This document shows, in pieces, positions 7,471 through 20,188 of a stretch of DNA of 22,475 nt. The number at the start of each line of letters is the position of its first letter. The first letter of the stretch is position 1. Position numbers and translations under genes: made by a program. This DNA comes from a virus. Below the pieces are notes generated by a model. That model saw nothing but the letters and a program-made list of their open reading frames with translations, did not search any database and was not told the origin of the DNA. The stretch is from positions 1 to 22,475 of the IMG/VR virus record IMGVR_UViG_3300023301_000124; one strand, 5' to 3'.

Positions 7471-8463
7471 ATGGCAAAAACTAATTATTGTAATGCAGAT
7501 TTTGATGGTAGGGATTTTGATGACCAGGATTTTGAAACCGCCTATGGTGGCTATGACTTTAAATTCAGGTCCTATCTATTTTCTCTACTACCGGTTTTCT
7601 TTAAAAAGAATGATTCTTATAAAGATACCAATGATCAGGGGTTACTTGAAAGATACTTATCTGTATTCGGTACAGAATTAGATGCTGAAGTAGTACCAGC
7701 CATACATTGTTATATGAATGCTATAGATGCACGCCAATGTAATCCTAAATTCTTAAACCATATATCAGACACAGTAGGTAACCCTCCCGATATATTTCAG
7801 GACGAGGAAGTATATAGGAACTTATTAAGTTATATAGTTACCTTCTATAAAATAAAGGGGACGGTTAAGTCTTATAAGTTATTCTTTGCTATCTTAGGAT
7901 TCAATATAGAAATAGAAGAATTACCTCACGAAGATGATGATTCATTTTATGATAGTGGGGCAGAATATGATACTGGAGAAGAAAGGCATACTTATGATAG
8001 GAATGCCTGTTTAGTTTGCTATTACTATAATATCAATATAAGTTCCTTAGACCCTACCGAACCCTTAATATTATCTACCTCAACCCTAGATAAACTAAGG
8101 CGGGCAATAGAATTTAATGAACCCATAAATTGTAAATTAGGTACCTTTACCTCAACCTTAAATCTATTCAGTGAACTTAACACATCAACAGATCCCGAAA
8201 TTATATTAACCTGGGTAGATCATATAGTGGTAAAGGGAAGCTTTGGGCAATTAAACAAACCCATAGATAACTCAAGGGTATCGGAGGACGGTACTCAATT
8301 AGTATTTAGTACAACATTAACTGAAAATGATTTTGATGGTAACATAACTGGGGCAGAGTTAAAAAACATATCGATGAATTATTTAATGGCTACTAAATCG
8401 GGATTAAATATAGTAAAGGATTCCGAATCACGGGTTAGAATAAGTTGGACAATCAATATATAA
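7471..8463 (+). CDS. Tail protein I-like baseplate wedge protein
   Basis: A 330-residue protein matching the P2 gpI (Tail_P2_I) family, which partners J in the wedge and corresponds roughly to the middle of T4 gp7. The recognisable part is about residues 30-150: YLFSLLPVFFKKND, LLERYLSVFGTELDAEVVPA, FLNHISDTVGNP and then YRNLLSYIVTFYKIKGTVKS with YKLFFAILGFNIEIEEL. The RN...YI..Y..KGT..s...L...LG pattern is characteristic of this family. The C-terminal half (about 170-330) is beta-rich, unrecognised, and longer than in P2 gpI; it may form the peripheral part that receives fibres. The N-terminus is Asp-rich with repeated DFDG/DFDD units. Its start lies one base after the J-like stop. Confidence 0.8.
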   Translation: MAKTNYCNADFDGRDFDDQDFETAYGGYDFKFRSYLFSLLPVFFKKNDSYKDTNDQGLLERYLSVFGTELDAEVVPAIHCYMNAIDARQCNPKFLNHISDTVGNPPDIFQDEEVYRNLLSYIVTFYKIKGTVKSYKLFFAILGFNIEIEELPHEDDDSFYDSGAEYDTGEERHTYDRNACLVCYYYNINISSLDPTEPLILSTSTLDKLRRAIEFNEPINCKLGTFTSTLNLFSELNTSTDPEIILTWVDHIVVKGSFGQLNKPIDNSRVSEDGTQLVFSTTLTENDFDGNITGAELKNISMNYLMATKSGLNIVKDSESRVRISWTINI

Positions 8464-8473
8464 CAATAAAATT

Positions 8474-9562
8474 ATGGTACAGAAGAGATTCATTAATTAT
8501 AAAGCATCAGTAGATTCATTCCCACTGGGTGAACAACACTTAGGAGTATTCAAACCGGGTAGGTACAATGGTTTTGATGAAATGGTAGCAGTAGATAATC
8601 AAACATTAGATGTTAAACATAAGGGTAAGGTAACAAAAGCTGATGCGGATGGGAATGGAGTTAGTTTATATGGGGTACTTATTACTCCCACAGGTACTAT
8701 CATTCACCAAGAAGGTAAAATAACCGTGAACCTACCAACAAATTTAGCTCCACCCGTTGGTGAAGAACAGAAGAGAACCTTTATACTTATCTGTGAACAT
8801 AATTACCAAGCCGTAAAGGGTGGGGTTGAGGCTAGCTATTTTTTAATAGCTAACCCTGATTCAGGAACTGAACCCATGGAGTTACCCAATAATAATGCTC
8901 AAGTATTATTAGGTGTAATCACAAAGAACTATAATAATAATAACTTATCTTATGTTCCTTCTAAGGTACCCAACTTAGGGGACCAGAATGCACAGGATAT
9001 TTATAATAAGATAAAGGAGTTTATAGAAATACCAGAATTAGAAGCATTACCGGATTTCGATGCCATAGCAAAAAAATGGGTGGAAGCAAATAAACCCAAG
9101 GTTATAGTAACCGGTTACTTTGATGTGGGGGAAGGCCCCGATGTGACTACTGAGTGGCAGAGTCTAGGTTATACCCAATATGTAATAAATCATTTACATG
9201 ATGTAAAGGGACACCAAGTACATTGGAGGAGGGTTAAAATTAATAAGGGACAAGATTTTATAGATATAGAGGTAACACGGAATTTAACCCATACCGGGAC
9301 ACCTTGGGAAGCCGGGGCTGGCCAGGTTCAATCCGCTCTTGTCTTAAATGAATCTAACACTGGTGGTGTATTATACCAAGTGGAAGAGGTAACTAATCAC
9401 CAGGAGTCAGGCCCAAATGGTAAGAAGGTATTTAGGTTTAAATTACAAGAAACTGGTGGGTCAGTACAAAGAAACCAATTAAAGGTAGTTCTTTATAATA
9501 TAAACACAGTAACTCCCCAAGAAGAGATACTGTTACCAGGACCTGGTGATATAGTTATGTAG
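8474..9562 (+). CDS. Putative tail fibre or baseplate-decoration protein
   Basis: I do not recognise a named family for this 362-residue protein. It is the last gene of the tail operon, after the gpI-like gene, where fibre or receptor-binding proteins usually sit. The N-terminal half is beta-rich, with a conserved-looking opening (FINYKASVDSFPLGEQHLGV, then KPGRYNGFD) and GVLITPTGTIIHQEGKITV, resembling fibre-attachment regions. A helix near residues 175-210 (NAQDIYNKIKEFIEIPELEA) separates it from a C-terminal domain (about 212-362) with alternating strands (GYFDVGEGPDVTTEWQSLGY, then HQVHWRRVKI), which could bind a receptor or plug the baseplate. No enzyme motif, signal peptide or collagen-like repeat is visible. 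A strong terminator follows 22 bases after the stop. Confidence 0.6.
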   Translation: MVQKRFINYKASVDSFPLGEQHLGVFKPGRYNGFDEMVAVDNQTLDVKHKGKVTKADADGNGVSLYGVLITPTGTIIHQEGKITVNLPTNLAPPVGEEQKRTFILICEHNYQAVKGGVEASYFLIANPDSGTEPMELPNNNAQVLLGVITKNYNNNNLSYVPSKVPNLGDQNAQDIYNKIKEFIEIPELEALPDFDAIAKKWVEANKPKVIVTGYFDVGEGPDVTTEWQSLGYTQYVINHLHDVKGHQVHWRRVKINKGQDFIDIEVTRNLTHTGTPWEAGAGQVQSALVLNESNTGGVLYQVEEVTNHQESGPNGKKVFRFKLQETGGSVQRNQLKVVLYNINTVTPQEEILLPGPGDIVM

Positions 9563-9566
9563 TTTA

Positions 9567-10232
9567 TTAGGTTAAAGAGTAATCAGCCAGAGGATCCTTA
9601 TCTAGGAAATATTCTCTGGCTTTTTTGAGTGTAGTATTTACTTCTTTTTTAAGGTTCTTAATATACCTATCAGCACCATTGGGATTATCCACGTGAATAT
9701 CTAAAAATTCTGCTATTAAAGAATTAGGTATACGTGAATTACCATTTTTTATACGGTGTAGTATGTAGGGAGGGGGATCCATTTGTATTTGGAATAGGAT
9801 AAAAGCATTAGCGGTTAACCTCTCCTTCATAAATTCTAAAGCTATGTTGTAGAATATATCTTCGGTTTTATTAAAGGTTTCATCTGGTATGATATTTATT
9901 AAGTTATCTTCTCCCTCCAATTCTACTTTAGAACTGTGGAACTCACCCTCAATATTATATGCTTTCCTTAGTATCCTATACTTAAAAGTTTGTAAAGCAC
10001 TGATAATAAAACCCTTTAATACGTCCGGGTCTTTATTATCAAAATGTTTGTTGAATACAAAGATAAACTTATCATCAAACCAGGATAGTATGATGTCGTT
10101 TGTTACTCCATATCGACGACAATCTATTTGGCGAGCTAATGATTTTCTTAAATTTTGGGTTTCTTTGTAAAGTTTGTTGAATAGTTCTTCTGAGTAACCT
10201 TCTTTCATAGGTTTTAGTCTGTGAATTTCCAT
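9567..10232 (-). CDS. Putative divergent RNA polymerase sigma-like protein
   Basis: A 221-residue protein and the only - strand gene in the window. The segment at about residues 45-92 (TNDIILSWFDDKFIFVFNKHF, then DPDVLKGFIISALQTFKYRI and LRKAY) looks like sigma region 2: an alpha-helical F.NK.F... LK..II..L.tFK.R. pattern with basic and aromatic residues. After an acidic linker (EGEDNLINIIPDE), residues ~127-215 form helices around a PPPYILHRIKNGNSRIPNSL segment that could act as region 4, the -35 reader. This is similar in layout to small phage late sigma factors such as T4 gp55, but no residue-level homology can be proven by eye. If correct, it would direct host RNA polymerase to late phage promoters, possibly those of the tail operon it faces. 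Alternative: an unrelated helical regulator. Confidence 0.42.
   Translation of the reverse strand: MEIHRLKPMKEGYSEELFNKLYKETQNLRKSLARQIDCRRYGVTNDIILSWFDDKFIFVFNKHFDNKDPDVLKGFIISALQTFKYRILRKAYNIEGEFHSSKVELEGEDNLINIIPDETFNKTEDIFYNIALEFMKERLTANAFILFQIQMDPPPYILHRIKNGNSRIPNSLIAEFLDIHVDNPNGADRYIKNLKKEVNTTLKKAREYFLDKDPLADYSLT
9585..9626 (+). terminator. Rho-independent terminator closing the tail operon
   Basis: An 8 bp perfect stem (AGCCAGAG at 9585-9592 with CTCTGGCT at 9614-9621) can extend inward by a G.T pair and two A-T pairs, and a small CCT/AGG helix can form inside the loop. It is followed directly by six T residues (9621-9626). This is a classic intrinsic terminator for rightward transcripts. 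It lies 22 bases beyond the stop of the fibre-like gene, inside the 3' end of the oppositely oriented gene. On the - strand the U-tract is poor, so it should stop rightward transcription better than leftward. Confidence 0.85.
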
Positions 10233-15067: not shown

Positions 15068-15466
15068 ATGGCTAAAAAGAAGAGAAAGGCAAGAGAATCT
15101 ACTGATAATGTAGATATGTTTAAACCTATAGACATTGAAAAATTTGGTTCCGATGAAGACCCTTGCTTTGGAAAACATTATGATTTATCCGCAGAAGAAT
15201 GTAAACGTTGTGGCGATTCAGAATTATGTGCAGCGGTATTCTCTCGAACAAATGCTAAGAAATTAAGGGATAAAGAAACTAAAGGTAACCGTTATAAGGA
15301 TATGGAATTGAAAGATCCCGATAAACCTATTAATGAAGCTTTACTTAATTGGGTAAAAGAAAAGAAAGAAGAGGGCTTAAAAAGAAGTGAAATAATTAAG
15401 AAAGCCAAGAAGATCTTTGGTTCAACTCGTAAAGAGGTTAAGGATTTATATAAGATAACACAATAG
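15068..15466 (+). CDS. Small basic protein with a four-cysteine cluster
   Basis: A 132-residue, Lys/Glu-rich protein. Four cysteines at 33, 45, 48 and 54 (C-x11-C-x2-C-x5-C, within DPCFGKHYDLSAEECKRCGD) could bind one zinc ion; similar CFGK..D....C..C....LC patterns recur in phage proteins of unknown function. The C-terminal half (INEALLNWVKEKKEEGLKRS and IIKKAKKIFGSTRKEVKDLY) is helical and could be a helix-turn-helix-like DNA-binding segment. The start codon is preceded by A/T-rich sequence (aatacaattagATG) without Shine-Dalgarno sequence. Its place between the UvsW-like helicase and the nucleotide genes suggests a DNA or expression role, but this is inference. Confidence 0.75.
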   Translation: MAKKKRKARESTDNVDMFKPIDIEKFGSDEDPCFGKHYDLSAEECKRCGDSELCAAVFSRTNAKKLRDKETKGNRYKDMELKDPDKPINEALLNWVKEKKEEGLKRSEIIKKAKKIFGSTRKEVKDLYKITQ

Positions 15467-15467
15467 T

Positions 15468-16109
15468 ATGGATTTATTCGAACATAAAGGAGTGTATACA
15501 ATATGTAATAAGGGTGATATTAAGGAAAGTATACTTAAAGGTATTATGAATGTTACCGAATTAGATATAGTTTATAACAGATTAGAAGAAGTTTATTTTA
15601 AGGTTGAACCAAAGGTAAACCATAGGATGGATAACCATGATGAACTTGTTTCAAATATGTATAAGGTAATGGGTGATGGTTTAATTATATTTCATTCCAT
15701 TTTTAAGCAGGCTAGTATTACAGAAGGCAATATAAATGATTATGTAGATAACATAATAAGAAGTGTACACTTAAATGACTCAGCGTATTATACCGAGGTT
15801 AGTTATATGGATAAGATTTCCAGGTTGATGAACTACTTTAGTACATTAGAATCTATGGATAATACCGGATATAAAGTTTTCAGTAAGGATTACATAACCA
15901 CTATGGTATCAAGCAAGGTGGCATCTAATTTTATGTTACAGGGTTTTAATGTTATTAATTACCTCAATATGGCAATACCTATAATCACAGGGGAAAAACA
16001 AGATAAGACCCAAGGTCAGGGATTAGTGGTTGAGTCTTTTATGTTGTGGATAAAAATTGCTAATACCTTAAGAATAGATTTACCAACCGTATTAAAAGAT
16101 AATGTATGA
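15468..16109 (+). CDS. Unknown protein upstream of the thymidylate-synthase-like pair
   Basis: A 213-residue protein that I do not recognise. It appears mainly alpha-helical, with an acidic N-terminus, several Met-rich helices (HDELVSNMYKVMGDGLIIFH, SYMDKISRLMNYFSTLES) and a hydrophobic C-terminal helix (LVVESFMLWIKIANTLRI) that is probably buried rather than membrane-spanning. No nucleotide-binding, metal-binding or catalytic motif is evident. It begins one base after the previous stop and shares an ATGA overlap with the first thymidylate-synthase-like gene, so it is co-expressed with the pyrimidine genes. A helper role in nucleotide or base modification is conceivable from context only. Confidence 0.7.
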   Translation: MDLFEHKGVYTICNKGDIKESILKGIMNVTELDIVYNRLEEVYFKVEPKVNHRMDNHDELVSNMYKVMGDGLIIFHSIFKQASITEGNINDYVDNIIRSVHLNDSAYYTEVSYMDKISRLMNYFSTLESMDNTGYKVFSKDYITTMVSSKVASNFMLQGFNVINYLNMAIPIITGEKQDKTQGQGLVVESFMLWIKIANTLRIDLPTVLKDNV

Positions 16110-16885
16110 TTAAGAATATAGATGCTCTTGCATTCGAAACCAGCCAGGAAGCTTACGATGAGTTAAATGCTCTTTTTTTAAACCAAGGGGGTAAGAAGTT
16201 AAGTAATATAGTAAGCGGCCAGGTTGTATCTTTTGATACTCTTATTTATATAGATAAGGGTTGGGTAAATCCGGACTTTGATTTTGGTAATACCTTTGGA
16301 TACCGAAAACAGAAATGGTCCATTTTAGTTAATAACTATATAGACAGGGAATCATTAGAAGGTTTACAATCTAGGGTTCAAACTCGGGTAGGTAAAGGTA
16401 GCAAACATTATAATGAATCAATGAGATTTGCTAACAACCATAATCATGGTAAGAATTGTTTACTATCACTAACTGTTACGGTTAGGGAAAAAGAACCCAG
16501 ACCCATTTTATCATTTACACTAAGGTCCTCAGAGATAACTAAAAGGTTACTGATGGACCTTTTACTTGTGCAAAGAATAGGGGAGACTATGTTTGATGAA
16601 CCTTGCAAGTTACAGATGCAGGTTATTAATATGTACCAAGACCCAGAGGCTTTTTGTATGTTGGATAGTTATATACCTCTTAAAGAAATGTTGATAAGGA
16701 AAAAAGGACAAAGGAAAAGCTGGTACCAAAAGAAGGTATTCAAAATATTAAAAAAGTTCAAGAGGGTTGACCTGGATGAAGTGAAATATAAAGTACATAA
16801 AAGATGTGTAAGGCAATTACAGAGACCGGAAGGTATACCTTTATCTGGGGATAGACCAATGTATGCAAAAGATTTAAAACTATGA
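16106..16885 (+). CDS. Divergent thymidylate-synthase-fold protein (first of tandem pair)
   Basis: A 259-residue protein whose middle lines up with the thymidylate synthase/pyrimidine hydroxymethylase fold. Seen: a candidate catalytic Cys118 (GKNCLLSLTV), then a strand leading to R140-S141-S142-E143, like the R-S-x-D phosphate and sugar-binding motif, with Asp151 exactly 11 residues after that Arg, where ThyA has Asn177. N175-M-Y177-Q-D resembles the THLYSN region, keeping the Tyr but with Asn for His. Spacing from Cys to Arg is 22 residues (20 in ThyA), and from Arg to Tyr 37 (43 in ThyA). The C-terminal ~60 residues are strongly basic and unrelated to ThyA. It may be an active paralogue, a decayed partner subunit or a base-modifying enzyme. 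Adjacent to a clearer homologue, linked by ATGA. Confidence 0.5.
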   Translation: MIKNIDALAFETSQEAYDELNALFLNQGGKKLSNIVSGQVVSFDTLIYIDKGWVNPDFDFGNTFGYRKQKWSILVNNYIDRESLEGLQSRVQTRVGKGSKHYNESMRFANNHNHGKNCLLSLTVTVREKEPRPILSFTLRSSEITKRLLMDLLLVQRIGETMFDEPCKLQMQVINMYQDPEAFCMLDSYIPLKEMLIRKKGQRKSWYQKKVFKILKKFKRVDLDEVKYKVHKRCVRQLQRPEGIPLSGDRPMYAKDLKL

Positions 16886-17658
16886 ATAAAAAACACCAAT
16901 TACAAGTACTCCACCTTTCACAAGTTATAGACCTATTACCTAACTCTGGTAGATTGGTTGAGTCTGGTACCTGGCAAGGTAACGATGATTATCAGGATCA
17001 GAAAATGTTTGTTGAAAGGAACCTAAGAGTATTATTCGATATAGAAAATTTACAACTGGATAAGATAGGAGCAGACCTACCTTGGGCAGAGGACCATTTC
17101 CAAGAGAGAGTAGGGGGTGAACCAACTAATCCGGGTGAAGCTTATAAAACATGGCCCTATGCAAAGCAAACCGAGGAATACATGGATGACAAAGTATTTA
17201 GCCATACCTATCAGGAAAGATTCTGGCCTAAGTTAGCTAATTCAGAAGAAAAGGGTTATTATATACATGTGGGGATAAGGTATAATGTTGGGGATTTACA
17301 AGATGTTATCAACCAATTAAGAGAAAACCCCCTAACCCGCCAAGCATATCTTCCTATTTTCTTTCCAGAAGACACTGGGGCTGTCCACAAGCAAAGAGTA
17401 CCTTGTACACTTGGGTATTACTTCTGGATAGAAGATAATAAACTACATTGTAATTATATGATAAGATCATGTGATGCTCTTAGGCACTTAAGAAACGACG
17501 TATATCTAACATCTAGACTATTAATATATGTAGCGAATGAATTAGATTTGTCATACGGTAAATTACATTTCTTCTGTTTCAACCTACACGTATTTCAAAA
17601 TGATGTTTATGCACTTACAAAAAAAGAAAATAAACTATGGAAAGAATTAATAGGTTAG
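16882..17658 (+). CDS. Thymidylate synthase / dCMP hydroxymethylase family protein
   Basis: A 258-residue ThyA-family enzyme, expected to transfer a one-carbon unit from methylenetetrahydrofolate to C5 of a pyrimidine nucleotide. Seen: catalytic Cys175 in RVPCTLGYYF, R195-S-C-D198 matching ThyA R166-S-C-D169, His236 and Phe238 in NLHVFQND matching H207 and Y209. Spacings Cys-Arg (20) and Arg to Phe/Tyr (43) equal those of E. coli ThyA. One upstream arginine remains (PLTRQAYL), but the second of the ThyA Arg126-Arg127 pair is Gln. The base-recognising Asn177 position is Asp206 (HLRND) in an ungapped alignment. Asp here is known in T4 dCMP hydroxymethylase and changes specificity to cytosine nucleotides. 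A one-residue shift would place Asn205 there instead, so substrate is unsettled between dUMP and dCMP. dCMP deaminase follows with a 22-base overlap. Confidence 0.8.
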   Translation: MNKKHQLQVLHLSQVIDLLPNSGRLVESGTWQGNDDYQDQKMFVERNLRVLFDIENLQLDKIGADLPWAEDHFQERVGGEPTNPGEAYKTWPYAKQTEEYMDDKVFSHTYQERFWPKLANSEEKGYYIHVGIRYNVGDLQDVINQLRENPLTRQAYLPIFFPEDTGAVHKQRVPCTLGYYFWIEDNKLHCNYMIRSCDALRHLRNDVYLTSRLLIYVANELDLSYGKLHFFCFNLHVFQNDVYALTKKENKLWKELIG

Positions 17659-18068
17659 AAATGTATTCAGAGATTGTTAATGTGGTATCCAAAAGGTCAT
17701 TGTGTCCCAGAAAAAAAGTGGGTGGTATATTAATAAAAGAAAAGAGGGTAATAGCTATGGGGTATAATGGTACCCTACCAAATGTTTCACCCCTAGAGGG
17801 TATAGATGAAGAAGGTAAATCCAAAACAATACATGCAGAAGCTAACATAATTTCATTTTGTGCTAAACATGGTATACCCACCGACGGGTGTACATTGTTC
17901 ATAACACTATCACCCTGTGAAAAATGTGCTGAATTAATAACTCAAGCAGGTATAGCAAATGTTATATATAAAGAACAATACCGAGATACAACTGGATTAG
18001 AAATATTAGAAAAACAAGGAATAGTATGCCATCAGTATTCAAAATTATCAAGAAAAGATACCAACTAA
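17637..18068 (+). CDS. Deoxycytidylate (dCMP) deaminase
   Basis: A 143-residue zinc enzyme that would convert dCMP to dUMP, the substrate of thymidylate synthase. Zinc ligands and catalytic Glu are clear: H66-A-E68 and P-C94-E-K-C97, plus the family-typical RSLCPRKKVGG near the N-terminus and AMGYNGT. Length is normal for phage deaminases. The chosen ATG lies 22 bases inside the preceding gene; an ATG at 17661, just after that stop, would shorten the protein by eight residues and is nearly as plausible. The 3' end overlaps the polymerase gene by 43 bases. In T4-like phages this enzyme balances dCMP, dUMP and hydroxymethylated nucleotides, which fits its two neighbours upstream. Confidence 0.92.
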   Translation: MERINRLEMYSEIVNVVSKRSLCPRKKVGGILIKEKRVIAMGYNGTLPNVSPLEGIDEEGKSKTIHAEANIISFCAKHGIPTDGCTLFITLSPCEKCAELITQAGIANVIYKEQYRDTTGLEILEKQGIVCHQYSKLSRKDTN

Positions 18069-20188
18069 AAAAGTTAATAAAATATTGTAAGCAAACTGGG
18101 TATGCATCCGTAGATTTTGAAACAAATGCAATGCCCATTACTAGCCCATTATTTTACCCCACTATATTAGGCGTATCTTTTCAACCCGGTTCTTCCTGGG
18201 TATTACCTTTGCAACATTTCGATTCACCTTTCAAAAAGGATGATAAGTGGAAAGAATTGTTTGATATGTTTTGTAAAGAAATCATAGAGAATAAGGACAT
18301 AATAAAGATAGCTCAAAATGCTAAATTCGAATACCAGATATTTAAAAAATATGGGTATGAGATGAAAGGTTATGTATTTGATACAATGTTGGCTAAACAC
18401 CTATTAGATGAAGATACACCTAATGGTTTAAAACCTATGGTGGATAGGTGGGTACCGGAGTTTGCTGGTTACTCTGAAGATTATGAAGGTGCTGCTTTAC
18501 CTTGGGATGAAAAGCCTCTAATAGGGTTATCCAAGTATTGTGGTTTAGATTGTGATTTAACTTTTAGATTAATGTTATTCTTTGAGGGTAAACTTATTGC
18601 AGGCCAATTCTTTTCATTATTTAGGAATATGCACATGATGGCTACCAGGGTATTAGCTGAATCAGAAACGGGTGGGATGAAGGTTGACCGGAATTACCTT
18701 GATAAACTAATTATAGAATATCAGGGTTACCTAAAAGATAATGATACTAAGGTAAGGTCTATTAGAAAGATTAGGAAATTCCAGGATTGGTTGGTACAAC
18801 ATAATATTAATAAACTAATCGATGAAGCTAGTGGGGAGATAAACAATATCCGAGATGAGTTAGAAGAGTTAGAAGACCCCAAGAAAATCAAAGCTGCTGA
18901 AAAGAAGATAAGTTCCAGGGAGGAAAAGATTGATAGGTATATGGCTCGGGAGATGAACACTAAAAAAGAATTAAAATGTTTAGAACCCATTAACTTTGGG
19001 TCACCAAATCAAATGAGAGACCTACTATTTCATTCTCCCGAAGGTTTTCAATTTGGGGTAGTTAAATATACCACCGACAAACAAAAGAATGAAACAGATA
19101 ATGCATCCACCGATGAATCTGTATTACTTGAATTAGGAGAAGGGGATAAGACAGGTTTTATAGAATCCTTATTAGATTATAGGAGATTAAGTAAATTAGA
19201 TTCTACCTATATAACTGGGATGAAGAAACACCTAGTAGGAGATTATGTTCATGCAAACTTTAATATACATGGTACCGTAACAGGTAGGCTTAGTTGTAAA
19301 CGACCCAACTTACAAAACATACCAAGGGATACTACTGCTAAGGATATTAAAAGGATGTTCGTACCACCCGAGGGTTATTACTTATTACAACTGGATTATT
19401 CACAGGCAGAGTTAAGGGTATTAGCTGCAATGGCGGGAGAAGAAACAATGATTAGTTGGTTTAAGGATGGAAAAGATATTCACCTTACCACCGCACTTAA
19501 AATGTATAAAGAAGAACATAGGTATGATGAGATTAAGGAATTATTAGATAAAGAGGATGGTTCTGATGCATTTGTTAAATGGAAAAAACGTAGGAAGTAT
19601 GCTAAGACAATTAACTTTGGTATTATATATGGGCAAGGGGCTCCTAAACTAGCAGAAGCATTGGAATGGACAGTGGAAGAAGCTAAGCAATTCTTAAAAG
19701 AATACTTCGAATTATTTCCCAAGATCCAGAAATTCATTAGGTCACAACATGGTAGAGCACATAGGGATGCATGTGTTAGAAACGTATTTGGTAGAAAGCG
19801 TAGGTTGTATGGTATAGATTCCGACCAACAGTGGGAGGTAGCAGAAGCAGAAAGACAATCGGTGAATGCCCCAATCCAAGGAGCAGCCTCGGACTATACT
19901 TTGTTTTCATCTATACTAATATGGGAGGAAATGAGAAAGGGTAATATACCTATTGACTTACCTCAAGTGTATACAGTACATGATTCCTTGGGTTATTATG
20001 TTAAAGGGGAACATGTACATACTGTAGTACCTATATTAGAAAAGATATGTGCTAACCCTCAAACTAAAGAATGGTTCGGGTTTCAGATAGATGATGTGAT
20101 AATGAAGGTAGATTTTGAATTATCTAAGGACAGCTGGCAAACACTTAAGTCTTATGATCCTAGCTTTGATTACACAGTTACCCAATGA
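18026..20188 (+). CDS. Family A DNA polymerase with 3'-5' exonuclease domain
   Basis: A 720-residue replicative polymerase of the Pol I/T7 type. The exonuclease domain has Exo I (D30-F-E32), Exo II as NAKFE where Klenow has Asp, and Exo III (Y171...D175), so proofreading is probably retained. No 5' nuclease domain is present. A Lys/Glu-rich, coiled-coil-like segment (about 250-320) lies in the thumb region. Polymerase motif A is DYSQAELR (D457), motif B runs RRKYAKTINFGIIYG (K527, F531, Y535), and motif C is HDS (652-654) with Ser in place of the usual HDE. Phe531 is the E. coli Pol I-like residue, not the Tyr of T7. The ATG is 43 bases inside the deaminase gene; no later Met leaves Exo I intact. 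Confidence 0.92.
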   Translation: MPSVFKIIKKRYQLKKLIKYCKQTGYASVDFETNAMPITSPLFYPTILGVSFQPGSSWVLPLQHFDSPFKKDDKWKELFDMFCKEIIENKDIIKIAQNAKFEYQIFKKYGYEMKGYVFDTMLAKHLLDEDTPNGLKPMVDRWVPEFAGYSEDYEGAALPWDEKPLIGLSKYCGLDCDLTFRLMLFFEGKLIAGQFFSLFRNMHMMATRVLAESETGGMKVDRNYLDKLIIEYQGYLKDNDTKVRSIRKIRKFQDWLVQHNINKLIDEASGEINNIRDELEELEDPKKIKAAEKKISSREEKIDRYMAREMNTKKELKCLEPINFGSPNQMRDLLFHSPEGFQFGVVKYTTDKQKNETDNASTDESVLLELGEGDKTGFIESLLDYRRLSKLDSTYITGMKKHLVGDYVHANFNIHGTVTGRLSCKRPNLQNIPRDTTAKDIKRMFVPPEGYYLLQLDYSQAELRVLAAMAGEETMISWFKDGKDIHLTTALKMYKEEHRYDEIKELLDKEDGSDAFVKWKKRRKYAKTINFGIIYGQGAPKLAEALEWTVEEAKQFLKEYFELFPKIQKFIRSQHGRAHRDACVRNVFGRKRRLYGIDSDQQWEVAEAERQSVNAPIQGAASDYTLFSSILIWEEMRKGNIPIDLPQVYTVHDSLGYYVKGEHVHTVVPILEKICANPQTKEWFGFQIDDVIMKVDFELSKDSWQTLKSYDPSFDYTVTQ

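Follow-up and report, generated by a model that had tools for sequence, protein, structure and literature searches.

We find that two adjacent genes of a 22,475-base phage contig, hereafter the window, encode a pair of proteins that recurs across very different phages and is therefore likely to supply phage DNA with a modified cytosine. The reading that we favour, and hold to be rather probable, is that these genes form a conserved phage module which modifies cytosine at the nucleotide stage, with the second protein (P2) acting on dCMP and the first (P1) serving as a second enzyme of the thymidylate synthase (TS) fold. The folds, the conserved residues and the pairing were computed; the substrates, the product and the roles are what we infer from them. 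A first-pass annotation of this DNA had noticed that both genes encode a Cys, an Arg-Ser-x-(Asp/Glu) motif and an Asp 11 residues after the Arg, and had proposed that both are TS homologues with Asp at the base-recognition site. These observations are right, and they are more general than that reader could see.

Both open reading frames are where they had been placed, on the plus strand. P1 (259 aa, 16106..16885) and P2 (258 aa, 16882..17658) share four bases, an ATGA in which the stop codon of P1 overlaps the start of P2 (16882..16885), and translation of the two is likely to be coupled. The end of P2 is overlapped in turn by a dCMP deaminase gene (17637..18068, plus strand; PF00383, E 3e-20; phrog_174, E 5e-44), with relatives in 97/152 loci, and a DNA polymerase A gene (18026..20188, plus strand; PF00476, E 8.5e-86) is a conserved downstream neighbour, found in 142 of the 152. 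The same genes, 100% identical to the window copies, are present on contig L002, and a megablast search of phage records with the entire window as query found no match. Immediately 5′ of P1 lies an ORF (15468-16109) with no family match and relatives in three loci only. Many relatives of the window locus carry a dUTPase-like gene near this place; none was recognised next to P1 in the window. Between the helicase and P1 there is also a 132-aa Cys-containing ORF (15068-15466, phrog_13400) with a conserved CFGKxYDL...CxxCGDxELC motif, relatives of which occur in 65/152 loci.

The second protein is the easier of the two to place. Pfam (PF00303, E 9e-13), PHROG (phrog_160, E 6.5e-33) and PDB sequence and structure searches agree that P2 belongs to the TS family, and a tblastn search with it matches 646 phage records. 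Its closest PDB sequences are AfhB, which acts on dCMP, and MilA, which acts on CMP, while its structure search returns TS folds with AfhB among the top three. In an alignment of P2 to TS sequences that include E. coli ThyA and T4 gp42, P2 Cys175 (17404..17406), Arg195 (17464..17466), Asp198, Asp206 (17497..17499) and His236 fall on ThyA C146, R166, D169, N177 and H207. P2 thus has the domain, the fold, the catalytic Cys and the equivalents of Arg166, Asp169 and His207 that characterize the superfamily, and its Arg195-Ser-Cys-Asp198 motif is followed, at Arg+11, by Asp206 in place of Asn177, the uracil-reading residue of a canonical, dUMP-using ThyA.

This Asp is a family trait. Column 177 is Asp in 57/57 readable P2-type proteins, most of which were reached via their P1 neighbour and not via their own sequence. 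A larger set of 129 P2 proteins has Asp in 128/128, which is not an independent count because the scan that supplied the second half of the set used patterns containing that Asp, along with the Arg discussed below. The preceding column, Asn205 in P2, varies between N, D, S and T, so it is Asp206 and not Asn205 that sits at the base site, as had been suggested. An Asn to Asp change at position 177 switches the preference of TS from dUMP to dCMP. A P2 profile scores the L. casei N229D mutant (1njc, 65.1 bits) above the wild type (61.4 bits). The TS of Pseudomonas phage M6, which makes a base derived from 5-hmU, aligns with Asn at this position. In the MetaGPA study (PMC8670742), the TS proteins of phage contigs with modified cytosine are marked by Asp177, and PF01503 and dCMP deaminase are domains that co-occur with them.

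P1 is far more diverged. A Pfam search gave no family, PF00303 included, and the PHROG matches are to function-unassigned families only (phrog_13667, E 3e-5; phrog_34294, E 1.8e-8). An AlphaFold (AF2) model built from 53 relatives has a pLDDT of 93.3 and a pTM of 0.91. With this model Foldseek ranks MilA (2e-6), AfhB (5.7e-6) and T4 dCH first, the values ranging from 2e-6 to 3e-5, and VIA-align gives Z scores of 13.8 for AfhB, 13.1 for MilA and about 10 for many ThyA chains; against 999 chains, Z was at least 8 in 396 and at best 13.8. The sequence homology between P1 and TS is visible only with P1 family profiles. Among 6602 ORFs, a strict P1-only profile of 133 sequences matched 26 TS proteins (best E 9e-5) and no others, and it matched no decoys; it was used instead of an iterative profile that had drifted into TS proteins and was discarded. 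Aligned with hhalign, deeper profiles of P1 and P2 gave a probability of 82% (pairwise E 1e-5) and placed Cys118, Arg140 and Asp151 of P1 on Cys175, Arg195 and Asp206 of P2, whereas shallow profiles reached 6-8% only. Against PDB sequences the P1 profile found nothing relevant, with weak matches to centrin only.

The putative active site of P1 consists of Cys118 (16457..16459), Arg140 (16523..16525) within Arg140-Ser-Ser-Glu143, and Asp151 (16556..16558) at Arg+11, the equivalents of ThyA Cys146, Arg166 and Asn177. Among 130 full-length and very divergent relatives, Cys118 and Arg140 are each kept in 130/130 and Asp151 in 129/130; with Lys/Arg70 and Tyr78 these are the near-invariant positions of the family. 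The two search patterns behind the P1 loci cover none of the three residues, and their conservation, as judged from these sequences, exceeds chance. By its predicted model, P1 is a member of the TS superfamily, with the TS fold and the equivalents of the catalytic Cys and the phosphate-binding Arg166 retained. The suggestion that the first homologue is a divergent subfamily of its own is borne out by its relatives, which are widespread and belong to no Pfam family. Some of them are encoded by phages of Gordonia, Microbacterium and Yersinia and match PHROG 13667 and 34294, one copy in Yersinia phage P744 being annotated as 'pyrimidine hmase synthase'. One scan of cellular genomes, with a single pattern and thus insensitive, found none.

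The two genes are nearly always found together. In a scan driven by P1, P2 lies downstream in 59 of 60 contigs, the exception being L046. In the reverse direction, a P1-type ORF is in the locus of 121 of 129 distinct P2 proteins, always on the same strand, and 51/120 upstream P1 copies are within 20 bases of P2; the remaining 8/129 P2 loci, some at contig ends, are without P1. The order is also kept in Microbacterium phage Triscuit, Gordonia phage Cozz, Yersinia phage P744 and the isolate ctuI7215; cultured phages infecting laboratory strains are among the carriers of the pair. Typically it precedes dCMP deaminase (97/152 loci) and DNA polymerase A, and all-alpha dUTPase-like ORFs occur in 96/152 loci.

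Some loci depart from this plan. P1 is duplicated in L004 (5004-5993 and 5986-6771), L005, L006, L055, L062 and L066, the first copy extending further at its C-terminal end. Three gut phages have two P1 copies ahead of P2, and between the copies stands a ThyX gene in L005 and an Asn-type ThyA gene, just upstream of P2, in L062. The P2 of L044 (6890-7601) and the P1 of L105 (97-926) each seem to be split into two ORFs, by a frameshift or an assembly error. The DNA polymerase ORF of L005 (8368-12633, 1421 aa) apparently carries two intein insertions with homing-endonuclease parts.

The gene order allows another reading of P2. The neighbouring dCMP deaminase could just as well supply P2 with dUMP, and P2 would then be the dTMP synthase of the phage with Asp177 tolerated; the deaminase gene overlaps P2, and 34/50 related contigs have neither ThyX nor an Asn-type ThyA. 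We regard this as quite improbable. Asp177 is invariant in P2, and it is established that Asp at this position turns TS from dUMP to dCMP. Moreover, the other 16 of these 50 contigs encode a separate dTMP synthase (ThyX in 13, Asn-type ThyA in 3, including L062), and P2 is therefore probably not one.

A cytosine-nucleotide role for the pair, as far as conserved residues and gene context can tell, is well supported. In the favoured reading, P2 would bind dCMP through Asp206, which is able to hold the protonated N3 and the 4-amino group; Cys175 would attack C6, and a substituent would be installed at C5. Once phosphorylated, the modified nucleotide would be used by the phage polymerase in making phage DNA. 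P1 most likely handles a cytosine nucleotide too, since the nucleophile, the Arg166 equivalent and the base-reading Asp are all retained, and would do so as a separate second enzyme. More tentatively, P1 may represent a new catalytic class of the TS fold that carries out a second step, either on a cytosine nucleotide or on the modified base that P2 makes, i.e. a hypermodification by two TS-fold enzymes in sequence.

Which product P2 makes is bound up with the residues around its catalytic Cys. Three positions before it (Cys-3) stands Arg172 (17395..17397, plus strand), and this is Arg in every member of the family (129/129, and all of the P1-driven set). The position is Leu in E. coli ThyA, Asp in T4 gp42, ViI, M6 and MilA, and Glu in AfhB. 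A carboxylate here has been proposed as a mark of hydroxymethylation, e.g. Asp145 in T4 dCH (PMC6400193). P2 thus lacks the Asp or Glu of a T4-type dCMP hydroxymethylase, yet has the Asp at the Asn177 position. Tyr110 is invariant, and the N-terminal half is too poorly aligned to place Glu60 or the Ser of the Ser/Thr-x-Tyr geometry. Position 147, the second top position in the MetaGPA study (PMC8670742), is Thr or Ser in the P2 family and not His.

Could P2 instead resemble AfhB of Mosigvirus phages, a flavin-dependent dCMP 5-hydroxylase, and make 5-hydroxy-dCMP for later glycosylation? AfhB (9iqu, 9iqc; FAD and dCMP appear in the PDB title) comes first among the PDB sequence matches of P2, is in the top three by P2 fold and has the best Z score for P1, and the 5-hodCMP synthase of Mosigvirus belongs to the TS superfamily (PMC13390438). 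However, the Cys-3 and D169 positions are Glu and Asn in AfhB and Arg and Asp in P2, and no GT2 glycosyltransferase is found among 50 relatives, which together make this an unlikely account. We give a similarly low weight to P2 being a dCMP methylase, an activity reported for phage Xp12, that makes 5-methyl-dCMP and not a hydroxymethyl product. The missing hydroxymethylase Asp at Cys-3 would fit, and N229D TS is established as a dCMP methylase (cited in PMC8670742), but the Leu143 of methylating TS is not retained in P2, and most members have Phe or His in place of Trp83, in a stretch that is poorly aligned.

On its aligned residues, then, the P2 signature matches none of the three characterised outcomes, i.e. 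methyl, hydroxymethyl and hydroxy. With regard to the first-pass proposal that one or both enzymes act on dCMP to give 5-hydroxymethyl- or 5-methyl-dCMP, the substrate has gained the precedent of Asp177 in cytosine-modified contigs (PMC8670742), while the choice between the two products is not readable from sequence given the invariant Arg at Cys-3, and 5-hydroxy-dCMP is also possible. We suggest hydroxymethyl as the likeliest product of P2, with methyl and hydroxy as further candidates.

Enzymes that might decorate such a base were sought in related phages. Neither the carbamoyltransferase PF02543 nor GT2 PF00535 occurs in 50 related contigs, and the closest relative (78.6 kb; P1 and P2 64-65% identical) has no decorating enzyme among the families listed; these absences are weak, because many contigs are fragments. 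They count against the module, as does the lack of Asp or Glu at Cys-3 of P2. A C5-cytosine DNA methyltransferase is encoded by 16/50 phages with the pair, and it would be redundant if all cytosine were replaced, so complete replacement is disfavoured, at least in those phages. In the gut phage L004, an IspD-like cytidylyltransferase (8158-8913) and a LicD-family phosphotransferase (8906-9778) lie 3′ of P2; the two could synthesize a CDP-activated alditol phosphate and pass it on, perhaps to the modified base.

The first-pass annotation had also raised the idea that P1 is a partner subunit. TS dimers contribute active-site Arg residues across their interface, and P1 as a non-catalytic or shared-site subunit in a heteromer with P2 would agree with the near-constant adjacency of the genes and the ATGA overlap in the window. 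We find this rather unlikely. Of 130 P1 relatives, 129-130 retain the Cys, the Arg and the Asp, and the two genes are sometimes separate (L046, and the 8/129 P2 loci). P1 distances track those of the DNA polymerase (r 0.86) and not those of P2 (partial r -0.10, a value reached or exceeded in 490 of 500 permutations), i.e. there is no specific signal between the two. Furthermore, in trees of 11 representatives, which are small and have some weak forks, the P1 of the window clusters with L003, L004 and L016, and its P2 with Cozz, Triscuit, P744 and ctuI7215. One P1 clade is thus paired with two P2 clades; P2 appears to have been exchanged inside a P1 lineage, which disfavours an obligate heterodimer and weakens the subunit idea. 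Given this exchange, the kept residues of P1 and the single-gene loci, two separable enzymes are favoured, and P1 is probably a second enzyme in the pathway of P2 and not its obligate subunit.

P2 alone is a further member of a known group, because Asp-type TS proteins already mark cytosine-modified phage DNA. The new part is P1, whose widespread family has no function assigned to it; P1 can now be seen as a diverged TS homologue with a nucleophile, an Arg and a base-reading Asp, nearly always beside P2. The product of the pair would bear on how phages escape restriction and CRISPR, and on the finding of new DNA bases.

Several known systems resemble this one in part. T4 dCMP hydroxymethylase (gp42) shares with P2 the TS fold, the catalytic Cys, the Asp at the Asn177 position and a Thr after the Cys; it differs in having Asp and not Arg at Cys-3, and the T4 stretch examined (L069) is without a P1-like protein. 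AfhB, the flavin-dependent dCMP hydroxylase of phage HY126 (Mosigvirus; 9iqu, 9iqc), also has Asp at 177, is closest to P2 in PDB sequence, uses dCMP and scores highest against P1, whereas its Cys-3 and D169 positions are Glu and Asn, and no P1-like gene lies in the Mosigvirus stretch examined (L152). MilA, a CMP 5-hydroxymethylase, has the TS fold and Asp at 177 like P2, but has Asp at Cys-3 and works on CMP in an antibiotic pathway. The TS proteins of cytosine-modified contigs in MetaGPA (PMC8670742) share Asp177, an altered residue 147 and co-occurring dCMP deaminase and PF01503 domains; P1 is not described in the text searched, and PF02543 is absent from the 50 phages with the pair. Finally, PHROG 13667 and 34294 hold P1-type proteins with no function given there, and the relationship of these families to TS comes from the present analysis.
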